Positions 21,295 through 23,815 of a stretch of 64,000 nt of DNA are shown here, in pieces. The notes beneath the pieces are model-generated. The model had not been told where the DNA came from and did no database searches. It saw only the letters and a program-made list of their open reading frames with translations. The position numbers and the translations under genes were made by a program. Position 1 is the first letter of the stretch, and every line of letters begins with the position of its first letter. Origin of the DNA: Acidovorax soli (GTDB taxonomy: Bacteria; Pseudomonadota; Gammaproteobacteria; Burkholderiales; Burkholderiaceae_C); contig NZ_FNQJ01000002.1 of assembly GCF_900107605.1 (NCBI RefSeq), positions 62,001 through 126,000 on the forward strand. Reading direction: 5' to 3'.

Positions 21295-21987
21295 TCAAAT
21301 CGCCACGAGTTTGCGAATACCCTTCGCCTCCATCTCGCTGCCGGGGCCACGCGCAATGACCTCGCCGCGCTCCATCACCAAGTAGTCATCGGCCAGCTCC
21401 TGCGCAAAGTCGTAGTACTGCTCGCAGAGCAGGATGGCCATCTCGCCGGTGTCGGCCAGCATGCGGATCACGCGGCCGATGTCCTTGATGATGCTGGGCT
21501 GGATGCCCTCGGTGGGCTCGTCCAGGATCAAGAGGCGCGGCCCGGGCGCAAGGGCCCGCGCAATGGCCAGCTGCTGCTGCTGCCCACCCGACAGGTCGCC
21601 GCCCCGGCGCCCCAGCATCTGCTGGAGCACAGGGAACAGCTCGTACAGGTGCGCAGGCACGGGCGTGGAGCCGCTTTTGTAGGCCAGGCCCATGCGGAGG
21701 TTCTCTTCCACCGTGAGGCGGCCGAAGATCTCACGGCCTTGGGGCACAAAGCCAATGCCCGCGCGCGCACGGTCATAGGGCGTGGCTTTGTCGATGGATT
21801 TGCCGTCAAACTGGATGGAGCCGCTCTTAATGGGCACCAGGCCCATGAGGCTTTTGAGCAGCGTGGTCTTGCCCACGCCGTTGCGGCCCAGCAGCACGGT
21901 GACCTTGCCGGGGGTGGCGGTGAGGCTCACGTCGCGCAGGATGTGGGAGCCGCCGTAGTACTGGTTGATGTTTTGGACGGTGAGCAT
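21295..21987 (-). CDS. urtE: urea ABC transporter ATP-binding subunit UrtE
   Basis: UrtE is one of two ATPases of the high-affinity urea importer UrtABCDE, a branched-chain amino-acid-type ABC system. The 230-residue protein begins MLTVQNINQYYGGSHILRDV and has Walker A GRNGVGKTT, signature LSGGQQQQLAIARAL and Walker B LLILDEPTEGIQP. The combination QYYGGSHILRDV with EGIQPSIIKDIG is typical of UrtE rather than LivF. It is last in the leftward urt gene order but is cut off from urtD by about 950 bases of repeats, so its expression may depend on readthrough or its own promoter. Confidence 0.93.
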   Translation of the reverse strand: MLTVQNINQYYGGSHILRDVSLTATPGKVTVLLGRNGVGKTTLLKSLMGLVPIKSGSIQFDGKSIDKATPYDRARAGIGFVPQGREIFGRLTVEENLRMGLAYKSGSTPVPAHLYELFPVLQQMLGRRGGDLSGGQQQQLAIARALAPGPRLLILDEPTEGIQPSIIKDIGRVIRMLADTGEMAILLCEQYYDFAQELADDYLVMERGEVIARGPGSEMEAKGIRKLVAI

Positions 21988-22003
21988 GGTGGTCTTTTGA
22001 GTG

Positions 22004-22052
22004 TTTTTGGCTCTAGCGATTTATTAGCAAGCGCTGACAGCCATTAAATTAG
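22004..22052. repeat. short palindromic repeat upstream of urtE
   Basis: The motif GGCTCTAGCG...AAGCGCTGACAGCC followed by ATTAAATT resembles a short repeat type seen between Comamonadaceae genes. It lies just before the urtE start on the urtE side of the large repeat element. AGCG and CGCT form an internal palindrome. Confidence 0.45.
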
Positions 22053-22119
22053 GAGCGATTGCGCTGGTCATGCGGGGGGTGGGGGCCGCTCGCCACTCTG
22101 TGCGAGGTGCTTGTGCGAC

Positions 22120-22788
22120 GGGCGGAGGCCGGGAATTCGCCCCGGCGGGCGAGTAACTTTCTTTCGCGTCGCCGAAAGAAAGTCACCAAAGAAAGGGCGA
22201 CCCTGCTGTGCGTGTCCCTTCGCTTCGCTGCGGGCAACCTGCGATGCTCGGTCAGGAGGCGCCACCGCAGAACTCACTGCGCGCTGCGCGCTCCGTTCGA
22301 ACAACTGCGGTGAGTCAGAGCACGAAGTGCGTGTGTCCTGCGGCACACGCACACGCCCCCAGCCCTGCGCTTCTCGGCACGCACAGAAGGGACCCCGGGG
22401 AGCGGACATCCACACGGGCCATCGCTGCGCTCGGCCCCGTCTCGCGGGCGCAAGCGCCTTCCGCTGCGAAAGCCAGGCCGAGAGCAGCGATGGCCCGTGT
22501 GGCTGTTTGGCTGACCATCCCCTCTGGCTGCGCCTGCGGCAGGGCGGTTGCGGGGTGGCATGGACGTCGAAGCGCCCATGCTTCGTGCTCTGACTCGCCG
22601 TGGCTGTCCGAGCGGCGCGCACAGCGCAAAGCGAGTTCCACGGCGCACCCCGCAACCGCACCGACGCAGGTTTGCCCCCACGCCCCGCGTGGGGGTCGCA
22701 GACTGGGGGTCGCCTTTTCTTTGGTGACTTTCTTTTGGCGAAGCAAAAGAAAGTTACTCGCACGCCGGGCGACTCCCGGCCTCCGCCC
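22120..22788. repeat. large nested inverted-repeat element between urtE and urtD
   Basis: This 670-base stretch carries no convincing gene. Its ends are inverted copies of about 80 bases: GGCGGAGGCCGGGA at 22121 matches TCCCGGCCTCCGCC at 22774, and GAGTAACTTTCTTT at 22151 matches AAAGAAAGTTACTC at 22746. Further in, GAGTCAGAGCACGAAG at 22312 is mirrored by CTTCGTGCTCTGACTC near 22579, and the centre pairs GGCCATCGCTGCGCTCGGCC with GGCCGAGAGCAGCGATGGCC. The whole could fold as one long hairpin or cruciform. Open frames inside it on both strands are Arg/Ala/Pro rich and match no family. No transposase is present. Confidence 0.8.
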
Positions 22789-22826
22789 TCAACACCAGCA
22801 TGCCCTCCAAGCCAGCAAGCAACAGC

Positions 22827-22903
22827 TCCGACAAGCTCAGCCCGAACGAATCGAGAACGGCCCCCAGGCTTCGACAAGCTCAGCCCGAACGGATCGAGGA
22901 CAG
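22827..22903. repeat. two tandem REP-like copies (GACAAGCTCAGCCCGAACG)
   Basis: Two copies of a 34-base unit, at 22827-22860 and 22870-22903, share CGACAAGCTCAGCCCGAACG and then A/GATCGAGAACGG or GATCGAGGACAG. This core is a widespread proteobacterial extragenic repeat. The copies end 37 bases after the urtD stop, in the 3' region of that gene. Confidence 0.75.
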
Positions 22904-22939: not shown

Positions 22940-23815
22940 TCACCGCCCCAGATAAACCTCAATCACCCGCTCATCCGCCTGCACCTGATCGAGCGTTCCC
23001 TCCGCCAACACTGATCCATCGCACAACACCGTCACCTTCTCCGAAATCGTGCGGATAAAGCCCATGTCGTGCTCCACCACCATCAACGAATGCTTTCCCT
23101 TCAAAGTCAGAAAAAGCTCTGCCGTGCGGGCTGTTTCTTCATCCGTCATGCCCGCCACCGGCTCGTCCAGCAGCAGCAACTTCGGGTCCTGCATCAGCAG
23201 CATGCCAATCTCGAGCCACTGCTTTTGCCCGTGGCTCAGGTTGCCGGACTGGCGCGTCACACTGCCCGCCAGGTGGATGGTGTGCAGGATCTCGGCCAGG
23301 CGGTCCGACTGCGCGGAGTCGAGCCGGAAGAACATGCTGGACTTCACGCCCTTGTGGGTCTTGAGCGCCAGTTCCAGGTTCTCGAACACGCTGAGCTGCT
23401 CGAACACCGTGGGCTTCTGGAACTTGCGGCCTATCCCTAAGCTGGCGATCTCGGGCTCGTTGTGGCGCAGCAGGTCGATGGTGGAGCCGAAGAACACCGT
23501 GCCTTTGTCGGGCCGCGTCTTGCCGGTGATGATGTCCATCATCGTCGTCTTGCCCGCGCCGTTGGGGCCGATGATGCAGCGCAGCTCGCCCGGGGCGATG
23601 TCCAGGCTCAGGCCATTGATGGCCTTGAAGCCGTCAAAGCTCACGTGCACATCTTCCAGGTACAGGATGCGGCCGTGGGTCACATCCACCTCGCCCGGCA
23701 CCGCCACGCGCGAGAAGCCTGCCGCGCGGCCACCCGACTCGGTCTGGCCCAGCGCAGCGGGCGCCAGCGTCTTCTGCAGCCTCCGCGCGCCTTCTTCCAT
23801 CAGATCGGGCGTCAT
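22940..23815 (-). CDS. urtD: urea ABC transporter ATP-binding subunit UrtD
   Basis: The 291-residue ATPase has Walker A GPNGAGKTTMMD, signature LSHGQKQWLEIGMLL and Walker B LLLLDEPVAGMTDEE, the last two being characteristic of UrtD. About 45 residues precede the ABC domain (EGARRLQKTLAPAALGQTES), more than in many homologues. The start at 23815 overlaps the urtC stop by four bases. It works with UrtE to drive urea uptake through the UrtBC pore. Confidence 0.93.
   Translation of the reverse strand: MTPDLMEEGARRLQKTLAPAALGQTESGGRAAGFSRVAVPGEVDVTHGRILYLEDVHVSFDGFKAINGLSLDIAPGELRCIIGPNGAGKTTMMDIITGKTRPDKGTVFFGSTIDLLRHNEPEIASLGIGRKFQKPTVFEQLSVFENLELALKTHKGVKSSMFFRLDSAQSDRLAEILHTIHLAGSVTRQSGNLSHGQKQWLEIGMLLMQDPKLLLLDEPVAGMTDEETARTAELFLTLKGKHSLMVVEHDMGFIRTISEKVTVLCDGSVLAEGTLDQVQADERVIEVYLGR

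Follow-up and report, generated by a model that had tools for sequence, protein, structure and literature searches.

By the window we mean the whole stretch of DNA analysed, 64,000 nucleotides in length. It contains two open reading frames that we take to be urtE and urtD; these names, like those of lnt, polA and the methyltransferase gene beside the G218 copy discussed below, come from reading translations and not from database calls. The gap between the two frames measures 952 nt and holds a large palindromic element, whose parts and immediate neighbours are as follows (no strand is assigned where none is given).

21295–21987, minus strand: urtE, open reading frame, with a close urtE found in relatives
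21999–22056, minus strand: AT-rich hairpin repeat, upstream of urtE
22120–22788: whole nested palindromic element, an empty copy without cargo, defined by inverted repeats and fold; one of 66 aligned copies
22120–22241, minus strand: left terminal unit, an outward-reading arm (covariance model R1; G000:C41:84120-84241 minus, window offset 62000)
22153–22186: left polypyrimidine/polypurine hairpin, HP2 (inverted pair I8)
22265–22327: inner inverted segment, left (inverted pair I2)
22406–22436: central stem, left side (inverted pair I3)
22437–22475: central 39-nt loop, at the position matching the cargo place in the loaded relative L209
22476–22506: central stem, right side (inverted pair I3)
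22581–22643: inner inverted segment, right (inverted pair I2)
22667–22788, plus strand: right terminal unit, an outward-reading arm (covariance model R1; G000:C41:84667-84788 plus)
22713–22722, plus strand: third pyrimidine tract CCTTTTCTTT, which mirrors that of HP2 and may form an intrastrand triplex
22724–22757: right polypyrimidine/polypurine hairpin, HP2 (inverted pair I9 and covariation of helix 3)
22826–22889, plus strand: two copies of an outward-polarised repeat, CTTCGACAAGCTCAGCCCGAA, beside the element
22940–23815, minus strand: urtD, open reading frame, used in the comparison of urtD–urtE gaps

A preliminary description of this DNA had reported a nested palindrome here, and inverted-repeat analysis confirms it, resolving three inverted layers together with small hairpins inside each terminus. 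The terminal inverted arms (22141–22203 and 22707–22769) span 63 nt and are 92% complementary, the inner arms span 63 nt at 79%, and the central stem pairs 31 nt at 94% with 39 nt between its sides; the symmetry slightly exceeds the element's ends (22108–22134 with 22774–22800, 81%). The predicted RNA fold reaches -506.7 kcal/mol on the minus strand and -479.4 kcal/mol on the plus strand, with z-scores of -23.05 and -25.24, respectively, each against 20 dinucleotide shuffles. The termini had been described as inverted copies of about 80 bases; inverted they are, and the length was too short, the model-scored unit being 122 nt per end. Open reading frames cross the element, but full copies differ in length (for example 669, 677, 637 and 619) by steps that are not multiples of three, which speaks against conservation of a long reading frame. 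Rfam returned two microRNA families far below their cut-offs, which we took as chance matches on a long hairpin. Phage records searched with the element gave no match; four plasmid records did, and in the two inspected the match lies between annotated genes of an incomplete gene table.

The terminal arms have a structure of their own. From 67 distinct full copies, 66 were aligned and 51 right arms entered the model (16 loci lacked the search motif and repeated loci were skipped), a selection by motif that favours typical arms. In these 51 arms, 90.1% of 1682 cells are paired in a three-hairpin structure. Changes on both sides of a pair number 135, where shuffles give 45.7 (sd 4.3) and slid controls no more than 33; further pair types are not clearly more numerous than in shuffles (40 of 500). 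Support is strongest for the second hairpin and weakest for the last: in the right HP2 (helix 3) 97.1% of cells are paired and 8 of 13 pairs have changes on both sides, and helix 4 is only 67.8% paired on the same alignment, in which arm types differ in register. An argument for RNA from G.T versus A.C cells in stems (85 versus 18) was set aside, the counts being dominated by two pairs and by related sequences.

Beside the second hairpin, the third pyrimidine tract matches the HP2 tract in mirror orientation. Across the 45 of 51 arms that could be parsed, the mean mirror match is 7.71, against 6.95 (sd 0.09) with tracts shuffled among arms (0 of 1000) and 6.96 for a plain direct match; for the 10 distinct tract combinations the values are 7.30 against 6.51 (sd 0.20) shuffled. 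The tract mirrors the HP2 tract and changes with it, a modest effect. In the intrastrand triplex motif TM-ECO (PMC4666352), a polypyrimidine–polypurine hairpin is likewise joined by a mirror third tract; unlike that motif, the arm is A/T-rich and part of a large palindrome, and its triplex is a putative one. Related sequences also occur next to the element at another site, 3' of lnt: at L369, L373 and L377 a TM-ECO-like repeat, CCCTCTCCC...GGGAGAGGG...GGG.GAGGG, adjoins the element, and at L377 the flanking sequence fits the published TM-ECO pattern (PMC4666352). A similar hairpin lies between lnt and a GIY-YIG-like gene at the empty lnt site of G658 (L403).

Turning to the urt site, the element does sit between two subunit genes of one transporter, inside the urt operon, as had been claimed, and had been thought to have probably invaded it. 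Of the 47 genomes in the genus, 43 have a close urtE and 39 are resolvable at the urtD–urtE gap. With the window's own genome included, matches on either strand counted and a full site defined by at least 500 of 669 positions covered, the element is full in 21, partial in 3 and absent in 15. The spacing comparison that the preliminary description proposed is clear: 34–301 nt in the 15 genomes without the element against 952 nt in the window. The short gap where the element is missing agrees with the earlier reading, but a private invasion of this operon is not supported, given 21 filled sites of 39 and, in two other genera of the family, a full element in G133 and a partial one in G166. Nor is the same sequence present at this place in all relatives with conserved coding capacity. 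The 15 absences fall in several separate branches of the urtD + urtE tree, and the urt-site copies form no single clade in the copy tree. Three genomes, G018, G019 and G038, carry the urt copy in the opposite orientation, and in G013 its orientation is mixed. Where the gap lacks the element, a motif matching the AT-rich hairpin repeat next to urtE is preserved in 13 of 15 cases. The flank repeat CTTCGACAAGCTCAGCCCGAACGG has outward polarity on 100 flank sides of 109 copies, with a wrong-polarity copy on 2, and this polarity holds even with up to five repeats in one flank.

The element belongs to a dispersed family. Within the genus, apparently Acidovorax, 45 of 47 genomes including the window's own contain a match, as do 86 of 150 genomes sampled from the family. 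The window genome (G000) contains at least 18 arms, arranged as six pairs plus six single ones. In G000 and G012, the two genomes listed in full, the counts are 18 and 15 arms and 6–7 paired copies each, all lower bounds, with only part of the candidates scored per genome (for example 11). Four of the six unpaired arms in G000 lie at contig ends (C37, C44, C60 and C89), where assembly breaks may hide more copies. In the complete 4.1-Mb genome of G003, the long copies listed all fall at about 0.35–1.25 Mb of contig C1, less than a quarter of the chromosome. Because the window element served as the query, divergent copies and any with long centres are under-represented; 89 of the 109 fetched occupy 17 sites common to several species, with both flanks matching. 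The arm covariance model extends this range to 68 of 200 genomes of the order (threshold 1e-3), 38 of 229 of the class (1e-4) and 29 of 398 in a phylum sample (1e-5), all 29 belonging to the window's class in a sample whose share of other classes is not stated. Among the matches listed in a pattern scan are Acidovorax, Polaromonas, Variovorax, Thiobacillus, Sideroxydans, Gallionella, Silvimonas, Vogesella, Methylobacter and others. Word searches of the literature and a search for six sequence motifs found no description of the element, subscription papers lying outside their scope. The preliminary description had seen a transposase-less element either moved in trans or a relic: a dispersed repeat without a transposase gene it is, but a relic is too weak an account of the family, whose members outside this genus bracket genes that differ between sister species.

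Copies in one genome resemble each other. In the 103 of 109 copies that passed a length filter, mean identity is 0.841 for same-genome copies (221 pairs), 0.824 for orthologs (261 pairs) and 0.805 for others (4771 pairs). Of these copies, 41 have their closest relative in their own genome, where 4.3 would be expected, and 24 have it in an ortholog (5.1 expected); in 114 of 173 pairs, orthologs are more alike than non-orthologs drawn from the same two genomes. To judge from these identities, copies are homogenised within genomes and evolve in concert, and some vertical signal remains.

The arms also bracket genes. Of 102 cases of neighbouring arms less than 3 kb apart, 91 face outward; the loci were selected for carrying arms, and some overlap, leaving 88 distinct outward pairs. 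The centre measures 200–560 nt in 67 of the 88 and is longer in 21, five of which stay below 800 nt. The 16 pairs with centres above 800 nt mostly hold one or two predicted genes, and their cargo has a lower GC content than the flanks in 15 of 16; a further loaded locus, L356, was missed by the arm-pair profile and stands outside the 21. A few arm pairs face inward, with 104–123 nt between them (L207/L215, L205/L225 and L227), and in G325 two arms, considered as the ends of a candidate autonomous element, lie 13.5 kb apart with genes predicted between them from open reading frames only. When 16 cargo proteins were compared with Pfam, seven had a match (SduA_C, Ion_trans_2, GIY-YIG, RelA_SpoT, methyltransferase, LysR and PD40) and nine had none; the GIY-YIG and SduA matches are nuclease-type domains, and PADLOC assigned SduA (2.5e-88). 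The cargo appears, from composition and gene prediction, to be foreign genes, usually one or two. Cargo without a Pfam match in the low-GC inserts of L354 (1073–1855), L303 (1060–1692), L224 (1994–2518) and L281 (3929–4810) includes candidates for new defence or accessory functions.

The window copy can be aligned with a loaded relative. In L209, which belongs to the window's family, the cargo sits where the window has its 39-nt loop, and homology with the left half of L209 reaches window position 22470. No loaded copy was found in the two Acidovorax genomes G000 and G012, where 13 of 13 arm pairs have centres of 300–523 nt.

At lnt, cargo differs between close relatives. The element lies 3' of lnt in 5 of 30 loci and carries four different cargos; near relatives such as G649 and G699 are without it. 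These loci come from 30 of 96 matching genomes, 27 of genus g165 and three of two other genera, and absence may be overcounted, the sequence 3' of lnt being short in L379, L381 and L396. In the sisters G687 and G684 the half-elements are 92.4% and 95.3% identical, the inner segments 97% and 99%, and lnt 89.4%, with unrelated cargo between the halves. Conversely, one RelA/SpoT-like gene stands beside such arms at three chromosomal places. At lnt, in G687 and G690, full arm pairs enclose it. In G218 it adjoins a methyltransferase gene in a damaged copy: the left inner half is deleted, so that the outer arm abuts the RelA/SpoT-like gene, and the right outer arm is truncated. In G346 the gene follows polA, next to an intact left half, and the contig stops before the right half; the lnt site of that genome has a different cargo and a left inner segment 96% identical to that of the polA site. 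On this comparison between sites, cargo and frame assort separately. The RelA/SpoT cargo at lnt may be old and inherited, since it is 87% identical between G687 and G690 where lnt itself is 84%. Homologs in G219 (69% identical) and G353 (51%) have no arm match.

On balance, we lean towards reading the window feature as an empty copy of a family of palindromic cassette frames that lack a transposase and exchange cargo through their conserved halves. Comparison across genomes shows the architecture, the shared sites, the homogenisation and the in-place reversal in one clade. It also shows similar frames that differ in cargo at a single site, and one cargo beside arms at several sites. Such a frame would consist of two mirror-image half-elements, their terminal units pointing outward, around a centre that is either short or cargo-bearing. 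Exchange and homogenisation, we infer, would proceed by homologous recombination or replication template switching via the conserved halves, without a dedicated enzyme, and the arm hairpins and possible triplex might provoke exchange by causing stalls or breaks in DNA. Both the homogenisation and the reversal at the urt site are what recombination among inverted, scattered copies would produce. New sites would arise rarely, beside or within smaller intergenic palindromes, by some agent. For its host the window copy is probably inert, and it is probably tolerated because such frames lie downstream of genes. Against exchange we count the damaged G218 copy, the G346 contig that stops before the right half, the possibly old lnt cargo, the vertical signal left among copies, the arm-less homologs in G219 and G353, and the lack of a loaded copy in the Acidovorax genomes G000 and G012.

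A serious possibility, though one we rate below exchange, is that the element is a large REPIN- or MITE-like non-autonomous transposon, whose terminal units are recognised in trans by a RAYT-like or other transposase, with cargo riding along as in mobile insertion cassettes. The occurrence of one cargo beside arms at three sites is expected here too, if a trans-acting enzyme moved arms and cargo as a unit, and in this respect tells against exchange. Occupancy of the urt and lnt sites is patchy, the inverted pairs with covarying hairpins resemble REPINs as described in PMC3116915, and G000 encodes one Y1_Tnp protein. However, the surroundings of this Y1_Tnp gene share only 13–16-nt matches with the urt gap, at chance level; none of the 16 cargo proteins is a known transposase, despite the nuclease-type domains; and no clear target duplication is visible by eye at the urt site. 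Smaller repeats blur the edges of sites with and without the element. Transposition of a unit does not by itself predict similar frames with different cargo in sister species.

It is improbable that the element is instead a functional nucleic-acid element at gene 3' ends—a bidirectional terminator, mRNA stabiliser or chromosome-structuring site—maintained by selection with cargo as a by-product. Gene context fits such a role, with 20 of 37 sites convergent, 14 tandem, one divergent and two unclassified by an open-reading-frame heuristic, as do the compensatory hairpin changes and the strong conservation of the element's inside across aligned copies. Part of that conservation is accounted for by homogenisation, however, and the low-GC cargo is left unexplained; absence from 15 of 39 urt sites and reversal in one clade imply no essential local role there, where a terminator within the operon should, moreover, be polar. 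Least probable is the earlier reading, that an insertion sequence once entered the operon and left an inert relic: the copy lacks a transposase or convincing gene, but arms occur across the class, arm pairs outside the genus bracket genes that differ between sister species, copies are homogenised, and decay alone is insufficient.

Returning to frames that exchange cargo, we offer a wider proposal only tentatively and think it may well not hold: that they form a recombinase-free gene-cassette system across a bacterial class, in which mirror-image halves that form hairpins and possibly triplexes would serve as portable exchange sites, single foreign genes (including the Shedu-type anti-phage gene SduA) would be swapped by ordinary homologous recombination, and the Acidovorax frames would be empty. 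If so, apparent intergenic debris would be a vehicle by which single genes turn over in Beta- and Gammaproteobacteria, independently of integrons, phages and transposons. The arm covariance model could then be used for finding new cargo genes, some perhaps defence genes, and the element would offer a natural case in which to study the persistence and homogenisation of long palindromes in bacterial chromosomes.

Several known systems share features with the element. Like REPINs and BIMEs with their RAYT (Y1 tyrosine) transposases, it is an intergenic, inverted pair of hairpin units with compensatory changes and no enzyme of its own; two close inverted hairpin units are what the outward pairs and the hairpin covariation display. 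Unlike a REPIN, it is about 670 nt long against roughly 100 (the GI example in PMC3116915 has 71 bp between invariant 16-mers), has several nested layers and can hold genes in its centre. REPIN/RAYT copy numbers usually exceed 100 per genome (PMC2817692), against the 15–18 arms found per genome here (two genomes, lower bounds), at sites shared between species. A RAYT origin, considered in G000 only, found no support there, and the RAYT-like gene is not flanked by the element's arms. That Y1_Tnp gene (L099 1162–1920, G000:C50) has a short repeat of its own, similar to GGGGTCAGACTCCAATT, and a motif similar to GGGGTCAGACTCCAATT occurs in the inner part of copies L003, L121 and L130.

With MITEs and mobile insertion cassettes the element shares inverted ends, the lack of a transposase, cargo in some copies and patchy occurrence. 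The window copy has the terminal inverted repeats and no transposase gene of a MITE; a passenger gene between such ends is present in relatives and not in the window. Apparent differences are that no parent insertion sequence was recognised (no known transposase among the 16 cargo proteins, which cover part of the family, as an autonomous parent with the same ends), that no clear target duplication was seen at edges blurred by smaller repeats, and that similar frames at one site differ in cargo. A review of MITEs (PMC10969869) mentions one in Polaromonas sp. JS666. The same strain carries the element (L233, L244 and L249), and the two may overlap. Integron gene cassettes, finally, are single, often unknown, low-GC genes exchanged at structured DNA, with one attC per gene. 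Compared by these general features, the cargo frames resemble them in the proposed exchange of single low-GC genes at structured DNA, and differ in having two long mirror-image halves in place of one attC per gene; the pairs examined do not lie in arrays.
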